The notes beneath the pieces are model-generated. The model saw only the letters and a program-made list of their open reading frames with translations. It did no database searches and had not been told where the DNA came from. The translations under genes were made by a program, and so were the position numbers. From a virus: DNA of 37,279 nucleotides. The DNA lies in IMG/VR virus record IMGVR_UViG_3300042466_000204, positions 1 to 37,279 of that record; one strand, written 5' to 3'. How positions within the stretch are numbered: the first letter of the stretch is position 1; the number at the start of each line of letters is the position of its first letter. Shown here piece after piece: positions 438 through 36,875 of this stretch.

Positions 438-3400
438 TTAAGTTGGTACTTCTCCTAAATCTTCTGCTGCAATATTATAATATTTTGAGCCTATTTGAAC
501 TCTTATGCTACCATTAGCTGATGTTGTTTCTGTAAGAAATCTTCCTAGCAACCAATTTGCTGATGTACTTCCATAAGGATTACCAGTCTGAATTCCACCA
601 CTAAAATACCCATCTCCGTAGCAAGTGATTCGTGAACTTCCAGTTGTTCCGTTAAGAATTAAATTACCACTAGAATTTAAAGTCATTGCATTTATTGCAG
701 TTCTGTCAAAATTAACAGAATCATTAAATCCGTTGGAATTTATAATTCTAAAATTTCCATTTAAGGTTGCAGCACCATCCGCCCAAATGCTACCATTTAC
801 TCGTAACCTGTTTGAGTTATCAGATGTCGTTCCAATCAGCACGTTGCCTCCTGAAAATGAATTTAACAACAATCTAGTTCCATCTATTGCAACAGGAGTA
901 TAATCTGAACCATTATCTAATAGTCCTCCAATTTGTACTTGTGAACCTGTATCACCAACAAAAAACCTTCTATTTGTATTAGATTGAACTTGAAATTTTG
1001 TTATTGCAATGCAGCCAATCCCTACATTTCCTCCGTTGGTTATTGTGAAAGCATCAGTAGTTCCTCCCGTTGTGATTCTAAAATCACCATTTGTTACCGA
1101 GCGAATCAAAGAACCATTAGCATTACCTGATTGTAATAAAGTTAATGAGTTTCCGTTTTGTATCGTCACCGAAGAGGAGAAGGTAGCTGCTCCTGTGGAG
1201 GCTATTACTAAAGCTGAAGTCGAACCTCCATCAACTGTCCATCTGAAAGCACCGCTTGAAGCAGGTTTTCTAAATACTGCATCACCTGATGAAGCTCCAT
1301 TAACTAAATCATCTACACCATCACTAATGCCCCAAAATGCTTTGGTTGTTCCACTCTGTTGTAATGATAGTATTGGTCTTGTTCCTGTTTGGGTAATGTC
1401 ATTATTGCTTACTAATAATGCCCCACTAAACCTCCCTGTTCCGTTGACATCTAGCTTAAAGCCTGCGTCTGTTGTCGTTCCAATCAGCACATTACCTCCT
1501 GAGGTGATGCGCATACGTTCAGAACCATCTGAAAAGAAGTATAGATAATTTGATGTATGATTATATCCAATTGTTCCACGATATGAATCTGCCCCTGTAG
1601 TTCCATCAGCAAAATAAATGTTTCCTTCTGTAGTTGCAGCAATAGTTAATCCTCTAAATTCACCACCACCAATTACAAAATGATTGCCACCTGCATTATA
1701 AGATGACATATTTGTTACTCCAATCCCCAATCTCCCACTCGCATCCAACGTCATCGCTTGGGTGAAGGAGATAGCATTGCCTGCCGTTCCTGATGGGGCT
1801 ATATTCCAACGATGCTCATTTCCAACAACAATATAGTTAGCAGCAGTTCCATTATTTTTATAAACCCAAGAACTACCATAATATGCATTTTGAGTTAAAC
1901 CAACATTATTAGTATCTCCAAAAAGTGAGCCATTAGATATATCAAATCCTCTTAAACCCCACGCACTCGGTGTAACTCCTAAGCCAAGGTTGCCTGAGGA
2001 GTTAAGAATTAGTCTTGGAGTTCCTCCACCTGTTGAAATATAAAGATTACCGCTTGCGTATATTCCAAAATCCGCATTAGAATTAAATGGACTTGCAAAT
2101 AATTGAGATGCATTACCAATGTAACCAGTATTTGCAACTGAGGTTGAAAATTCTAAATAATTACCATTTGTATTTAAAGAGTTTAAATTTAATGCCTGAC
2201 CATTTGCTACCACTCTTAAAGTACCACTAAACCTACCTGTTCCGTTAACGTCTAGCTTAAAGCCAGAGTCCGTTGTTGTGCCTACTAGTAGGTTGCCGCT
2301 GCTGGTTAGGCGAGTTCTACTTCCCCAAGATGAGCCGTTAAATGTGTAAAAATCTAATCCAGTACCTGAACTTGTTGCTGAACCTGCAATAATTCCAGTT
2401 TTATCAACTGTATCATAACCAAATTGCAAGCCATTATCGGCAAGAGTTGAATCTCTAATTATTGCAACTCTTTTTCCATTTGTACTACCAAATGCAAAAG
2501 TTGATTGTTGGTCAATTTCAAATCCAAATGCAGAATGACTACCTCTATTTACTATAAAAGTTCTTGAAATTGCTTCAATAGATGTTCCATTATCAATTAT
2601 TGCACTATTTCCAATCGTGCTTGTTCCTGTAAACTTTGGCAAATAGTTAGTCGTTCCTGTCCCTGTGACAGGGTTAGTCAAAGCGTTCTGCTTGTTGTTA
2701 AAGGTTGTCCAATCCGCAGCACTTAATGCACCTCTGTTAGCAGCAGATGCAGTAGGGACATTTAAGGTAATAACAGGAGTAGTTGTGCCGTTTGCAACGC
2801 TACTTGATAAGTCCGTTCCTGATGTTCCTAGAGTTAAAGCTGCAACGCTTGTAACTGTGCCTACACCTGACCCTCCAACAAGAGCAATAGTACCGCTTGC
2901 ATCGGGTAGAGTATAAGTTCTATTTATGTTGTCAGTTAATAGGAAAGAACTTAATGTAAAATTTTTCCATACTCCTGAACCCGTACTAAATCCAAAATTT
3001 AAAGTATTATTTCCAACAGGAGTTATTGCAGTATAACCTAAGAAAATTGTCTGAGCATTACTTGATTGCTTTAAAAGCAAGGCTCCTGCATTAAACCCTC
3101 CGTTAGCAATTAAATTACTAGCAGATAATGTGTAAGTGCCTAAATCAACTCCTGATGTTGCTCCAGTATATGGAACATAAGTACTTGCAGCAGCAGCGGT
3201 TGTTAGGTAAGTAGAATTATCATAGCTTATTGTCGTACCGCTAATCTTAACGAATCCTGTGCCGTTTAGTGCTTGCTGCTTAGAGTTAAATGTACTCCAA
3301 TCCGTTCCGCTCAATGCCCCTGTAACACCTGCACTTGCTAGACCTAGTGACAACTGTTGAGTAGACAAAGAAAGTCCATTAGCCGTTCCTAGGGTAACCG

Positions 3401-29714: not shown

Positions 29715-29936
29715 ATGATTGAAGCACTAGACGAAGTATCAGAAATCCCATTTAAAGTATTCTGGGATAAGTACATGGAAGCAAGACCTGGGGACTATGA
29801 TAAGACCTACACCCAAGGTATTTGGCTAAAGATGAGAGAAGCAAATAGGGTACTTGCATTTGAATATATGTCTAGATTCGGTACAGACTACAAGACTCCT
29901 GTATTGCATTTGGAGGCTTTTGATTTACCGTTTTAA
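29715..29936 (+). CDS. 73-aa unknown protein before the DNA methyltransferase
   Basis: A helical small protein (EIPFKVFWDKYMEARPG, then YTQGIWLKMREANRVLAFEYM) ending two bases before the methyltransferase ATG. Its sequence looks like a short conserved phage protein in replication regions, possibly DNA-associated. No motif gives a function. Confidence 0.6.
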   Translation: MIEALDEVSEIPFKVFWDKYMEARPGDYDKTYTQGIWLKMREANRVLAFEYMSRFGTDYKTPVLHLEAFDLPF

Positions 29937-29937
29937 G

Positions 29938-30816
29938 ATGAGACATGGATCACTATTTAGCGGTATAGGAGGCTTTGATTTAGCATCCGAATGGATGGGT
30001 TGGGAAAATGTATTCCATTGTGAGTGGAATGAGTTTGGACAGAAAGTTTTAAATTATTATTGGCCTAAAGCAATATCATATCATGATATCACAAAGACAG
30101 ATTTCTCTATTCACAGAGGAACAATTGACATCCTTACAGGTGGATTCCCTTGCCAACCGTACTCATTTGCAGGAAAGCGACTCGGCAAAGAGGATGAGAG
30201 ACACCTCTGGCCAGAAATGTGTCGAGCAATACGAGAAATTCAGCCGACCTGGATTGTGGGCGAAAATGTTCGTGGGCTTACTAATTGGAATGGAGGGTTG
30301 GTATTCGACGAGGTGCAATCTGACTTGGAAGCTCAAGGCTACGAAGTCACACCGTTTTTACTTCCTGCTGCAAGTGTCAATTCACCACACCTCAGACAAA
30401 GAATTTGGTTTATTGCTCACTCCGACAACAAGAGAAGAAGTTCAGGACTTGGAGAAGTTCAAAAAGAGAATGCAAAAGTATCCGAATGGAACAACAATGC
30501 CAAACTTAGCAACTCAAATGATAGCAATGCTTCCAACTCCGATGGCATCGGATTGCGGGGACAAAGTGACAGGATTGGAAACTCAAGATTCATTAACAAA
30601 AAGAGCAAGGGAAATAAATGGCAAAACTTCCCAACTGTCTCCCCAATTTGTCATGGAGATGATGGGCTTTCCGACAGATTGGACTCTATTACCTTTCCTA
30701 AATGGAGAAACGAATCAATCAAAGCAGGAGGAAACGCAATAGTTCCGCAAGTAGTTTATCAGATATTTAAGGCAATCGAGCAGTACAATCAACTTGATAA
30801 GCAGCTATCTATATGA
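29938..30816 (+). CDS. C5 cytosine DNA methyltransferase
   Basis: 292 aa from the ATG at 29938. Motif I is FSGIGGFDLA (7-16), motif IV GGFPCQPYS with catalytic Cys72, motif VI ENVRG (109-113), motif VIII QRIWFIA (154-160). The late motifs are DGLSDRLDSITFPKW and GNAIVPQVV. The region between motifs VIII and IX is low-complexity (Asn/Ser-rich), which may mean an altered target-recognition part. It probably guards phage DNA from host restriction. A second long frame overlaps it (30083-30742). The stop overlaps the next ATG. Confidence 0.9.
   Translation: MRHGSLFSGIGGFDLASEWMGWENVFHCEWNEFGQKVLNYYWPKAISYHDITKTDFSIHRGTIDILTGGFPCQPYSFAGKRLGKEDERHLWPEMCRAIREIQPTWIVGENVRGLTNWNGGLVFDEVQSDLEAQGYEVTPFLLPAASVNSPHLRQRIWFIAHSDNKRRSSGLGEVQKENAKVSEWNNNAKLSNSNDSNASNSDGIGLRGQSDRIGNSRFINKKSKGNKWQNFPTVSPICHGDDGLSDRLDSITFPKWRNESIKAGGNAIVPQVVYQIFKAIEQYNQLDKQLSI
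30083..30742 (+). CDS. Overlapping second-frame protein within the DNA methyltransferase gene
   Basis: A 219-codon frame runs in the +1 register inside the methyltransferase gene. Its translation contains segments I know as typical of phage methyltransferase-associated proteins: RCNLTWKLKATKSHRFYF, GLLLTPTTREEV, LSPQFVMEMMGFPTDWT and LPFLNGETNQSKQEETQ. The last half looks conserved in protein terms, whereas the first ~55 residues look less so. The start is uncertain (possibly an internal Met near residue 62) or by frameshift from the main frame. It could be a shadow, but the motif content argues otherwise. Confidence 0.5.
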   Translation: MISQRQISLFTEEQLTSLQVDSLANRTHLQESDSAKRMRDTSGQKCVEQYEKFSRPGLWAKMFVGLLIGMEGWYSTRCNLTWKLKATKSHRFYFLLQVSIHHTSDKEFGLLLTPTTREEVQDLEKFKKRMQKYPNGTTMPNLATQMIAMLPTPMASDCGDKVTGLETQDSLTKRAREINGKTSQLSPQFVMEMMGFPTDWTLLPFLNGETNQSKQEETQ

Positions 30817-33367: not shown

Positions 33368-33904
33368 TTAGAATAACTTTTTACTCACTCCTATCTGATG
33401 TACCTTCTCCATTGGCTGGTACTGATACTGAAACAAATACTTGTTGTCCAAGTAGGAAACAGATGCACTCGGTTTTAACAAAGAGTTGACTCCTGCACCC
33501 AAATATAATCCCTTCGGTTTTTCAATAATTGTCTTGGTTTCTGTGTTCGTAATTGTATTCGTTACCACAGGAATCTTATAGTCGTTCGTAGCGGTCATTT
33601 TAAGCACTTCTCCGAGGACTTCTCCGCTGAGATATGTATTACCATACTCGAAAGGTATAGTGGTCTTAAACAGGCTAATTTGTGGCTTAAAATCGATTAG
33701 GATTGTATCCCTTAAAACTTCGGTTTTTATCTTGGTTTTAGGGATGTAAACTGTCTCCAATTTGTCGACAAACAAAGTGTCCGTTTTTGTCACGGTTTCA
33801 AACTTGTAGACAGTCTCCTGCTCATGTCTAGGGTAGACTACGAAAGTTAAAATTACCCCTGCAAGAAAAGCAAAAATAGCTATTCTAATTCTTTGATCCT
33901 CCAT
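33368..33904 (-). CDS. Inner-membrane anchored protein with outer-membrane-like C-terminus (spanin-like candidate)
   Basis: 178 aa from the ATG at 33904; the longer upstream frame is a shadow of the 50-aa gene. Residues about 6-24 (IAIFAFLAGVILTFVVYP) form one membrane helix. A periplasmic segment rich in Thr/Lys/Glu strands follows. The C-terminus alternates polar and hydrophobic residues (GLYLGAGVNS, SASVSYL, KYLFQYQYQ, VHQIGVSKKLF) and ends in Phe, as outer-membrane beta-barrel strands do. Similar DUF6808-type proteins occur in Bacteroides phages (from memory). It may link inner and outer membranes in lysis. Confidence 0.6.
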   Translation of the reverse strand: MEDQRIRIAIFAFLAGVILTFVVYPRHEQETVYKFETVTKTDTLFVDKLETVYIPKTKIKTEVLRDTILIDFKPQISLFKTTIPFEYGNTYLSGEVLGEVLKMTATNDYKIPVVTNTITNTETKTIIEKPKGLYLGAGVNSLLKPSASVSYLDNKYLFQYQYQPMEKVHQIGVSKKLF

Positions 33905-34037
33905 TGGTGTATTGAAAATAACATACAGCAGCTCTTTGTTTACTTTCAGGGAACTCTCGTTCCATAATTGGGTCGACAATGCATCGTGAGATAAACTCAC
34001 TTTGTGTCTCGGCAGGCTTTGGCTTAGGTAGTGGCAT
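33885..34037 (-). CDS. 50-aa MPLPKPK-type small phage protein
   Basis: A short frame: MPLPKPKPAETQSEFISR, then CIVDPIMEREFPESKQRAAV with C near residue 19, ending GGSKN. It matches a motif ('MPLPxPxxGExxxxFxxRC...DPxMxxEFPdxxQRxAVC') that commonly stands at the N-terminus of head-maturation or other phage proteins, or alone. Here it is alone, in the lysis block. Its start shares an A with the previous stop (TAATG). Confidence 0.75.
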   Translation of the reverse strand: MPLPKPKPAETQSEFISRCIVDPIMEREFPESKQRAAVCYFQYTNGGSKN

Positions 34038-34258
34038 TATTGTTCGATAAATAGGTTGTCTTCTTCAAGTATCTTTCTTAATTCCTTACGGCAAAAATCA
34101 TAAGCTTTATAAGTATCTTCAGATAATTCCTTGTATTTCATTTCAGAGCGTAAAAGCTGGTCCAACTCCCAATGGGCGCCTTTATATTTATGTCCGTTTA
34201 TTGCCGCGTGGAAATCGTTATTCTCTTCAGGCAAATTAAATTCTAGTATTGCTTTCAT
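34037..34258 (-). CDS. 73-aa conserved phage hypothetical
   Basis: MKAILEFNLPEENNDF at the start, then AINGHKYKGAHWELDQLLRS and a helical end (FCRKELRKILEEDNL). This resembles a short family widespread in siphophage genomes ('MKAILEFNLPEE...') with no assigned function. It is coupled to the metallophosphoesterase by ATGA at 34255-34258. Confidence 0.8.
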   Translation of the reverse strand: MKAILEFNLPEENNDFHAAINGHKYKGAHWELDQLLRSEMKYKELSEDTYKAYDFCRKELRKILEEDNLFIEQ

Positions 34259-35136
34259 AACGGAAATTTATGTGAATCTACTAATAGTTCATAATTATCT
34301 GACCCATCTTTTACATACCTTCTGCCATGCAAGGTCAAAATTCTGCCTCCAACTGGCTTAACTGGTGCCCCTCTTTCAATATGCCATCCTTGGCTACCAT
34401 CACCGTACTCTTCCTTGTATGTACCTGTAATAGCAAGGTGAATCTGCTTTTGCTGAAGTTCGTAAATTCGCTTTCCTTTGTTATACTGAAGGGTATCTCT
34501 AACATCATTTCTACTTGAGTTCTCATGAATGTGACCCATCACAAAGATGTCCATGTTTTCATACATCTCTAATGATCTTGTTAAGTTAATGGCACCACGT
34601 GTAACAATTCCTCCTAAACCGATTCCGTGATGGTACTTCAAATTTTTTGTCATTGAAGTGCTAGGTCTTAAATCATATTTAATAACTATCCACCCACCAT
34701 ATCCACCCACATATACATTGCTTTTATTCTTGTAGTTAAATAGGTCTACAAATCTTTGAAGGATGTCAGTTTCAGAATACTTAATTATAGAAGTTTCATG
34801 GTTGCCATATCCAATAACAGTTAATATTGAAGCATAAGGAGACCACCACTCTACCGCAGTTTCTACTATGCTATCCAAGTACTTTGCGTTATTATGCTCA
34901 GGCCTTATGTCTGACTTGTTGTTTCTGCGATCCATACGGCCCTGCATACAGCAAAAAAAATCCCCATTAATAAAAATAGGGATATTCTGCTCAAGGCAAT
35001 AGTCAAGATGTCTCTTTAACATTTCACGATCACACTTAGGATTATCCCAGTGAATATCTGAAAGTAAAGCTACCTGATTCTCTTCTGTTTTTAGTGAAAG
35101 AGAATGCACATTACGTGCTATTTTTATAAGTTCCAT
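34255..35136 (-). CDS. Calcineurin-like metallophosphoesterase
   Basis: 293 aa with the full motif set: LSDIHW (Asp27, His29), INGDF (Asp59), GYGNHE (Asn112, His113), and MGHIHE (His202, His204). It binds two metals and hydrolyses phosphoesters, possibly DNA ends, nucleotides or signal molecules. It is longer than small phage phosphatases. Its place just after the endolysin, in the lysis block, is unusual. The start shares an A with the endolysin stop. Confidence 0.88.
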   Translation of the reverse strand: MELIKIARNVHSLSLKTEENQVALLSDIHWDNPKCDREMLKRHLDYCLEQNIPIFINGDFFCCMQGRMDRRNNKSDIRPEHNNAKYLDSIVETAVEWWSPYASILTVIGYGNHETSIIKYSETDILQRFVDLFNYKNKSNVYVGGYGGWIVIKYDLRPSTSMTKNLKYHHGIGLGGIVTRGAINLTRSLEMYENMDIFVMGHIHENSSRNDVRDTLQYNKGKRIYELQQKQIHLAITGTYKEEYGDGSQGWHIERGAPVKPVGGRILTLHGRRYVKDGSDNYELLVDSHKFPL

Positions 35137-35600
35137 TAAGGAATAGTTTGGTAAACTGTTTTGCCTCCAGACCGAACGGCCTTCAGCTTTTGCTTTCTAT
35201 TGCCTGTCTTGACGTAGCTAACATGAACCCAATCAGGATTTTTGTCTGTGCCAAACTCCCAGATTATCTGGTCAAAGTCCAAACGTGAAACAATAAAATC
35301 AAAAACCATCTTGTTAGTCACTCCACCTTTGCTGCCATCCATATCAATGTCAATGGCTTGACCTTTGCAATGCTGGGAGGATGCGCTGCCTTTTATAAAA
35401 GCATTTAATGCCTGGGACCTGTAACCACTACTAATAAAAATTGGAGTTTTAAAGTGCAATCTGATTGGCTCAAATACTTTCTCTGCTAGTAGCTTAAAGT
35501 TCTCCAAGTGTTCAGCAGTTGGAGTGTTGTCAATGCCGTGACGCTTTGCAGAATCGCTTCTAGTGACTTCTGCTAGGTTTAGATGTGTGCTAATTTTCAT
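35136..35600 (-). CDS. Endolysin, peptidase M15 family
   Basis: A 154-aa M15-type peptidase. SSGYRS at 57-62 precedes the zinc motif SSQHCKGQAIDID (His77, Asp84) and WVHVSY (His126). The enzyme would cut peptidoglycan cross-peptides (D-Ala-D-Ala or L-Ala-D-Glu type) at lysis. There is no signal peptide, so a holin is needed. The start overlaps the PAS gene by 11 bases. Confidence 0.9.
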   Translation of the reverse strand: MKISTHLNLAEVTRSDSAKRHGIDNTPTAEHLENFKLLAEKVFEPIRLHFKTPIFISSGYRSQALNAFIKGSASSQHCKGQAIDIDMDGSKGGVTNKMVFDFIVSRLDFDQIIWEFGTDKNPDWVHVSYVKTGNRKQKLKAVRSGGKTVYQTIP

Positions 35601-36348
35601 TCTTAGATTTTTTATCTTCTGAGGTTGCGTATTTAATACCCATAATAGTTCCTACAATAGAAAACGCATTGGTAAGCAGTACTGAAAACATATTGCTCCA
35701 CGTTGAGCCAATTATTTGCGTGTCTTTATTAGACAGAATTGCAAAGGAGTACATAATAGTAGTAATAAAGCCTACTGACATAATCACAAACAAAGCAGAC
35801 TTTACGATTACTTTAATAAGTTCGTTTTGGCTTTTTTTAATCGTAGCGTCTAGGTCATTTACCGCTGCATCCTTTTCTATTTCAATTGCTGCCCTTAGCT
35901 TGTTAGAGTTTTCTAACTCTGCTTTGACCTTGGCAGAAAGTTCTTCGATTTTATTCTTGCTGACAATCGTTTCTGTAATGTCGGTTGCAATCTTCATAAT
36001 CTTAGTTATTGCACCGCTCTCATCTAGGATTGGGTTGTATGTCGCTTGCAAGAAAATTGGGGTGCCGTCAATTTTGCGCCTTTCAAATTCTCCCTCATAA
36101 TACCTGCCTTCTCTAAGGGTCTCCCAGAACTTTATGTAATCGTCAGACTTTGAGTATTCGTAGCTAACAAAAATAGAATGGTGCTTGCCTATTAGCTTGT
36201 CGTGTTCGTTATCGGCTAATCCCATAGCCTTCAAAAAAATTACATTTACTCCAAGGATAAAACCGTTTAGGTCAAAGTAAATAATCGCATTGCTACGATT
36301 AATGGCCTCCATCCTGTAAAGCAGTTCCTCCTTGCTTAGATTTTTCAT
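35590..36348 (-). CDS. PAS sensor - coiled coil - two-helix membrane protein
   Basis: 252 aa. Residues about 12-125 are a PAS/PAC domain (YFDLNGFILGVN, GKHHSIFVS, FWETLREGRYYEGEFERR, ATYNPILDESG). It resembles the sensing PAS of chemoreceptor-like proteins such as BdlA/Aer. Residues ~126-176 form a charged helix, likely a coiled coil. Two membrane segments follow (about 182-205 and 219-240), ending in SEDKKSKNEN. No kinase, GGDEF or MCP signalling domain is present. It lies between a holin-like gene and endolysin, with ATGA and short overlaps, so it may be a sensing lysis regulator. Confidence 0.75.
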   Translation of the reverse strand: MKNLSKEELLYRMEAINRSNAIIYFDLNGFILGVNVIFLKAMGLADNEHDKLIGKHHSIFVSYEYSKSDDYIKFWETLREGRYYEGEFERRKIDGTPIFLQATYNPILDESGAITKIMKIATDITETIVSKNKIEELSAKVKAELENSNKLRAAIEIEKDAAVNDLDATIKKSQNELIKVIVKSALFVIMSVGFITTIMYSFAILSNKDTQIIGSTWSNMFSVLLTNAFSIVGTIMGIKYATSEDKKSKNEN

Positions 36349-36569
36349 TCCTTCTTAAAAATCTTTTCGGCTGCACTAATGCCTAGAGCAGCAGCAGACA
36401 ATGCTGCAACAGAATAAACCAAGGCTTCGCTTGGCTCGTTTACTGCATCGTGATTAGCATACAACGTGTAGCACAAAGCTACTGCTGAGAATACTCCTAC
36501 AAATCGTTTGCTGGATGCCTGTCCGTTTTCAGATAGAAAACCACTAGACCACTCAAAAAACTTTTTCAT
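36345..36569 (-). CDS. Holin-like small membrane protein
   Basis: 74 aa. The start is polar and aromatic (KKFFEWSSGFLSENGQASSKRF), followed by two hydrophobic segments (FVGVFSAVALCYTLYA and LVYSVAALSAAALGISA) and a short basic tail. The layout and the position just upstream of the PAS and endolysin genes fit a holin that forms holes timing lysis. ATGA couplings are on both sides. Confidence 0.7.
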   Translation of the reverse strand: MKKFFEWSSGFLSENGQASSKRFVGVFSAVALCYTLYANHDAVNEPSEALVYSVAALSAAALGISAAEKIFKKE

Positions 36570-36688
36570 CTTCCTTGACCTCTGTATTTTTTAGGCTTAT
36601 TAATGCTTTTAGAATATGCTTTCTTGGCTTTGCCGTTTCTACGTTTGCCAAATGGAGTTGCCTTAACTACGCTAGTTCCTTTTTTCAT
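36566..36688 (-). CDS. 40-aa highly basic protein
   Basis: A short frame, MKKGTSVVKATPFGKRRNGK..., with about 16 Lys/Arg in 40 residues and no membrane segment. Its start overlaps the previous stop by 17 bases; its stop is ATGA-linked to the holin-like gene. It could bind nucleic acid or be a small virion or lysis accessory. No recognised family. Confidence 0.65.
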   Translation of the reverse strand: MKKGTSVVKATPFGKRRNGKAKKAYSKSINKPKKYRGQGR

Positions 36689-36875
36689 TTTCTCGCTTGT
36701 CGTAAACCGCTTTCTCGTTTTTAATTTTGTAGACTAGGTAGACAATTGAAAGCAAAGAGATAATCATGGTAAGAACCACATTCAAGAAATCTATTCCGAT
36801 GGCTTGAAAAACATTTGCCACAAATGCCACAAGTGTCGATGGTACTCCTATTTCGTCTTTTTGCAAGATATTCAT
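36672..36875 (-). CDS. 67-aa membrane protein, first in the lysis block
   Basis: A small protein with two hydrophobic regions (TLVAFVANVFQAIGIDFL and VVLTMIISLLSIVYLVY) and a strongly charged C-terminus (KNEKAVYDKRENEKRN). This profile fits a holin or antiholin. With the second holin-like gene downstream, the pair could act as holin/antiholin. The promoter box lies 24 bases upstream of its ATG. Confidence 0.65.
   Translation of the reverse strand: MNILQKDEIGVPSTLVAFVANVFQAIGIDFLNVVLTMIISLLSIVYLVYKIKNEKAVYDKRENEKRN

Follow-up and report, generated by a model that had tools for sequence, protein, structure and literature searches.

Why would a phage encode a PAS domain between a holin-like gene and an endolysin gene? 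The question is raised by a protein of 252 amino acids, encoded from an ATG codon on the minus strand at positions 35590–36348 of a 37,279-nucleotide viral DNA from IMG/VR, the whole of which is referred to here as the window. The original prediction, made without database searches, described a PAS sensor fused to a membrane domain of two helices within a lysis cassette, with no downstream signalling domain, and proposed that such a protein couples lysis timing to host physiology. Work on whether lytic phages sense host physiology before lysis has reportedly centered on T-even lysis inhibition and on quorum-sensing prophages. The architecture and setting that were described are borne out by Pfam, AlphaFold2, hydropathy, and gene overlaps, and the coupling of lysis timing to host physiology appears plausible on our analysis.

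Residues ~19–127 of the window protein match the Pfam families PAS_9, PAS_3, PAS, and PAS_4, all above gathering cut-offs (PAS_9, 34.7 bits; cut-off 27); residues 19–127 are encoded by 35968–36294. An AlphaFold2 model of the monomer, built from a 61-homolog alignment and of moderate confidence (mean pLDDT 73.9, pTM 0.42), has a PAS α/β fold, a continuous helix (residues 125–205), a short loop, and a second helix (residues 210–243). Foldseek searches with this model returned PAS and LOV structures, including NifL and MmoS. The long charged helix or coiled coil (residues 128–178; 35815–35967) is continuous with transmembrane helix 1 (TM1, residues 179–205; 35734–35814), as seen in the model and by homology to the effectors described below. 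A short, presumably periplasmic loop follows (residues 206–216; 35701–35733), and then transmembrane helix 2 (TM2, residues 217–242, WSNMFSVLLTNAFSIVGTIMGIKYAT; 35623–35700). Hydropathy likewise identifies two membrane segments, with centers near residues 183–198 and 227–232. Because lysines directly precede TM1, the positive-inside rule predicts that the N-terminus of the hairpin is cytoplasmic, and thus an N-in, C-in topology. No kinase, HAMP, or DNA-binding (HTH) domain occurs in the protein, as judged by Pfam and the AlphaFold2 model, in agreement with the absence of a downstream signalling domain noted at the outset. The hairpin matches no known holin family in Pfam or PHROG. The helix and hairpin together weakly match phrog_1544 (E 0.005), a family of unknown function that has no PAS domain in the aligned part.

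The PAS domain had been likened to those of the chemoreceptor types BdlA and Aer. A profile search against the PDB placed MmoS (3e-10), Aer (1e-5), and NifL (3e-4) among its closest relatives, along with phototropin; these solved relatives are flavin sensors. Three of its amino acids, H56, H57, and W75, are invariant in 138 of 138 aligned family members. W75 (codon 36124–36126) aligns with a Trp of MmoS, Aer, and NifL, the one in Aer being W70, and H57 (codon 36178–36180) aligns with Aer H53, the isoalloxazine-stacking His. The Aer residues H53 and W70 stack on the flavin and adenine, with N85 and R115 close to the ring (PMC9668731). For FAD-binding PAS domains in general, a Trp in Fα is the main determinant, with a His and an Asn being secondary, and one cluster of such domains also lacks the Asn (PMC10468136). 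The PAS domains of BdlA are predicted to bind FAD (PMC8694187). By these sequence features, the window PAS is classed as being of the flavin (Aer/MmoS/BdlA) type. Flavin binding is predicted and likely, with some uncertainty because two of the four Aer contacts compared are replaced: the position of N85 is an invariant Arg in the window family (R90), and that of R115 is A121 in the window protein.

The cassette genes of the window run in one direction, on the minus strand, in the order basic 40-amino acid peptide, two-TM protein, PAS protein, M15 endolysin, and metallophosphoesterase. The basic peptide (36566–36688), which ends in KYRGQGR and has no PHROG family, is encoded by a gene that overlaps by 4 bp the gene for the two-TM protein (36345–36569). 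The latter, a holin-like protein of 74 amino acids with no Pfam or PHROG family, has a gene that overlaps the PAS gene by a further 4 bp. The PAS gene in turn overlaps the M15 peptidase endolysin gene (35136–35600; PF08291, 3.4e-17; phrog_894 endolysin, 2e-31) by 11 bp, and the endolysin gene overlaps that of the metallophosphoesterase (34255–35136; PF00149, 1.3e-6) by 1 bp. Two further minus-strand genes lie nearby. One encodes a one-helix membrane protein of 67 amino acids (36672–36875), a neighbor kept in close relatives, and the other a membrane-anchored protein with an N-terminal hydrophobic segment (33368–34000), which might, as a guess, be spanin-like. Three neighbor clusters of membrane-anchored proteins found near cassettes, one of which includes this protein, have no useful family match and may be spanins of Bacteroidota phages. 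The cluster of the two-TM protein recurs at 72 of 142 PAS loci and is a candidate holin of such phages. Many cassettes have, within or near them, very small basic proteins with the ending Y(R/K/V)GQG(R/K) or similar, which form two clusters, of 18 and 13 loci. The hosts of the window virus are likely to be Bacteroidota, since its portal protein is closest to Cellulophaga phage portals (31%). A freshwater setting is likewise likely, as read from the hosts and phage relatives rather than from the sample source.

The window protein belongs to a widespread family, a point beyond the original prediction. Searches of IMG/VR yielded 224 stretches with the window protein as query and 552 with its C-terminal domain. 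Among 213 loci, all intact members have one or two PAS domains, with the exception of one short ORF (L200); tandem-PAS forms are common, and the other shorter forms are cut by contig ends. TM2 is identical at 26 of 26 positions in all 138 aligned members. Mean entropy per position in these members is 0.83 bits for the PAS domain versus 1.75 for the tail. An invariant 33-residue stretch is encoded by 105 distinct DNA versions that differ at most synonymous sites, and selection is therefore on the protein level. This variation rules out recent spread or a nucleotide-level constraint as the basis of TM2 invariance. Ascertainment was also ruled out, as the first scan used no TM2 peptide and all of its loci share TM2. 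Divergent TM2 variants were sought with a DNA pattern, which gave two matches, both unrelated.

Relatives outside these uncultured viruses were scarce. Among cultured phages, the window protein gave just three weak matches, confined to the PAS domain. One of these (L082), a protein of 675 amino acids with a chemoreceptor-like C-terminal end and no hairpin, was rejected as a relative, and the remaining two are Listeria records. The C-terminal domain had no match up to E 1 among INPHARED phages, except for the T-even imm gene (tblastn E 0.1), which was treated as a chance match. A pattern search for the C-terminal domain found no copies in GTDB contigs, and 301 Flavobacteriaceae-level genomes gave nothing beyond kinase PAS domains.

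An endolysin gene lies within six genes of the PAS gene at 127 of 142 unique loci and is adjacent at 82, as compared with 12% adjacency for other genes of the same loci. Late-gene clustering alone could account for part of this proximity. The fusion occurs beside M15 endolysins and also beside endolysins of two other families, unrelated to M15 and to each other, GH19 and GH24 (both confirmed by Pfam); either gene order occurs beside these three types. On a FastTree phylogeny of the family, endolysin class requires 27 parsimony changes, with at least 10 forced by well-supported branches for GH19 and likewise for M15. Because endolysin class changes repeatedly, the gene appears tied to the lysis function and not to one enzyme. 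No member with a known role outside lysis cassettes was found, though ~6–10% of loci are away from recognized endolysins. At least nine fully flanked loci have no recognized endolysin within 6 kb. In two large phages (L127 and L132), the PAS-hairpin gene is among replication genes, and no lysis gene was found near it at three other loci (L115, L139, and L201). Four more loci (L066, L097, L173, and L203) keep the two-TM neighbor and have no recognized endolysin. One further type of protein, seen at L366 (333–932), at L368 (5993–6787), and in one neighbor cluster, in some cases has a PG-binding domain; its main part matches phrog_3000 (unknown function) and not lysozyme or chitinase, and it is possibly a fourth wall-acting enzyme of the cassettes.

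Other large phages have the same helix and hairpin in a protein with no PAS domain, encoded by the third gene of an operon, after a PAS histidine kinase and a stand-alone receiver (L363–L439). This two-component form is a further point beyond the original prediction. A scan with a cellular Bacteroidota PAS gave 57 viral loci, the ORFs examined being histidine kinases, and in 12 of 12 kinase-bearing records tested a PAS-less copy of the family C-terminal region, termed the effector here, was found a few kilobases away. The kinase–receiver–effector operon is usually beside endolysins: an endolysin is within seven genes at 36 of 43 unique effector loci, and a receiver is directly upstream of the effector at 38 of the 43. 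Receiver and effector genes overlap by 4 bp in 37 of 37 cases, and the Asp pair, phospho-Asp, Ser/Thr, and Lys of the receiver are present in all 37. Pfam assigned GAF, PAS, and HATPase_c domains to the kinases and Response_reg to the receivers; two PAS kinases have HATPase_c, and two receivers have PF00072 above cut-off. Among the 41 neighboring ORFs that were chosen by an RHDM pattern, the phosphoacceptor-His box is complete in all 41, and the N, G1, and G2 motifs are present in 30–31. In some of these operons, a second kinase-like ORF with HATPase_c separates the PAS kinase from the receiver (e.g., L363, 2753–4156).

The C-terminal domains of the PAS-fused proteins and the effectors are homologous (HHalign E 2.4e-46, 118 columns, 49% identity). 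A model of the effector has one helix (residues 37–184) running into the hairpin, and one effector matches phrog_1544 with an E of 1.3e-5. Neither effector nor receiver has a match among INPHARED phages, and no copy was found in 396 Bacteroidota genomes searched with the effector, a search that had no positive control. Exactly one version was found in each long viral record (34 of 34, made up of 3 PAS-fused and 12 two-component records and then 7 two-component and 12 PAS-fused records). No PF00072 receiver was found in the window record, possibly a fragment. From the PAS-less hairpin in kinase–receiver operons and the presence of one version per record, we take the window protein to be, most plausibly, the one-component version of a membrane effector whose other version is two-component.

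The PAS trees relate the two versions to each other. The kinase PAS domains share a clade with those of the window family (98/87), with cellular Bacteroidota kinases next (99/92). In the tree in which the phage PAS domains form one clade (100/100), this clade is beside Bacteroidota cellular hybrid kinases (99/93). Hybrid histidine kinases of Bacteroidota (L219 and L256) are the closest cellular PAS proteins sampled, and these two are the only cellular Bacteroidota proteins in the trees. Thus, of the proposed likeness to BdlA and Aer, the resemblance to the flavin-type class holds, whereas kinship with chemoreceptors, and with it a chemoreceptor origin, is unsupported by these trees with their two cellular Bacteroidota proteins.

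These observations lead us to a reading that we consider reasonably probable, namely that phages carry in the lysis cassette a membrane effector under signal control, and that the window protein is its one-component form. A dimer of the cytoplasmic flavin-type PAS domain would read the redox or energy state of the infected cell, or a ligand. The signal would travel along the continuous helix into the two-helix membrane hairpin (N-in, C-in), the assembly of which would change and thereby set when the cassette holin and endolysin act. In phages with the two-component version, the same hairpin would take its signal from the phage-encoded histidine kinase and receiver. As judged from gene neighborhood, the window protein most likely controls holin triggering or the timing of lysis. 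The broader proposal, that freshwater Bacteroidota phages switch one shared membrane hairpin that decides lysis time, either through a PAS protein or through a kinase–receiver relay, stands at about even chances.

Could the window protein instead be a holin, or a second holin, with the PAS domain timing lethal hairpin lesions that release the endolysin? It has two TM helices with a predicted N-in, C-in topology, and the window endolysin, lacking an evident signal sequence, must be let out by something. At four loci, moreover, the PAS protein and endolysin are present with no other small membrane protein within three genes. Such a protein does occur within three genes at 74 of 82 well-flanked loci, however, and two of the neighbor clusters are true Phage_holin_4_1 by Pfam. 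Holins usually drift fast in sequence, unlike the invariant TM2. We therefore regard a holin identity as unlikely. We favor a regulator, resembling an antiholin-like gate, over a main holin, given that further holin-like genes usually accompany the PAS gene.

The loci without a nearby endolysin speak for another reading, in which the protein is a membrane sensor serving a different late process, for example the exclusion of superinfecting phages or the regulation of host respiration or membrane energy, and would be near lysis genes through late expression. Since the neighboring holins and endolysins vary, the docking partner of a near-fixed hairpin could also be an invariant part of the host, and there is the imm match, probably due to chance. 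Against this explanation, which we consider rather improbable, the gene has tight translational overlaps with those for endolysins or holin-like proteins and has stayed next to endolysins of three types, in either gene order. That the protein is ordinary host-derived cargo with no specific role in lysis is highly improbable. PAS domains are common, and the window PAS descends from Bacteroidota sensor kinases, but the ~550 phage matches, fixed architecture, extreme conservation, lack of copies in the bacterial genomes searched, and parallel two-component version are hard to reconcile with cargo. Returning to the signal-controlled effector, since its hairpin stays constant while the partner holins and endolysins vary, the constraint on the hairpin probably comes from self-assembly or from a host component that does not change.

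The window protein has partial counterparts among known systems. In Aer of E. coli, a PAS domain is joined to a membrane hairpin. The window protein shares this join, as well as a cytoplasmic flavin-type PAS with the stacking His and Trp conserved. However, Aer continues into a HAMP and a chemoreceptor signalling domain, whereas the window protein ends just past the hairpin, is encoded in a phage lysis cassette, and does not conserve Aer N85 and R115. By both sequence and fold, the window PAS has MmoS and NifL among its closest relatives in the PDB, but the outputs of BdlA, MmoS, and NifL are MCP or kinase-type domains, and no bare membrane hairpin is attached to any of them. Vibriophage VP882 likewise encodes a PAS sensor, VqmA, which leads to lysis of the host (PMC8284805). 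Unlike the window protein, VqmA combines its PAS with a DNA-binding domain, has DPO as ligand, and acts through qtip transcription on the lysis–lysogeny choice. Environment-responsive control of lysis through a holin and antiholin occurs in T4 (T/RI/RIII) and ICP1 (TeaA/ArrA) (PMC7182436). Our searches found no relation between these proteins and the window family. To our knowledge, lysis inhibition in T4 and ICP1 involves no PAS domain, kinase, or receiver. The two-component version resembles bacterial two-component systems in its PAS histidine kinase (HATPase_c), receiver (PF00072), and conserved phosphorylation residues, but differs in being phage-encoded and in having as its apparent output a membrane hairpin beside endolysins rather than a DNA-binding domain. 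In the literature searched, which took in few subscription journals, we found no phage lysis protein with a PAS domain and no phage two-component system with a membrane-hairpin output. The suggestion that no lysis regulator of this design has been characterized thus agrees with the literature covered.

In hundreds of viral contigs, a sensor is linked to a single, nearly invariant membrane effector next to an endolysin, in interchangeable one- and two-component forms. This suggests that many uncultured lake viruses pair lysis genes with a sensor-controlled membrane protein and so read the state of the host before bursting it. If so, lysis in these phages would have an added signalling layer that is post-translational and gated by the environment, and two-component systems would have as output a membrane protein instead of a transcription factor. 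The family would also offer a defined, portable module for asking which signal (redox, respiration, or ligand) sets lysis time.

Two other features of the records were observed. In a 203-kb viral record with the two-component version (L364), an ORF for a DnaK-like (Hsp70) protein of 616 amino acids, identified by eye, lies between a two-TM gene and the effector operon (756–2606, minus strand). In the window, an ORF of 219 amino acids (30083–30742, plus strand) that matches phrog_1008 DNA methyltransferase (2.5e-19) lies, in a different frame, inside a C5 cytosine methylase gene (29854–30816, plus strand; PF00145, 1.1e-44), and the two form an apparent dual-coding gene pair.
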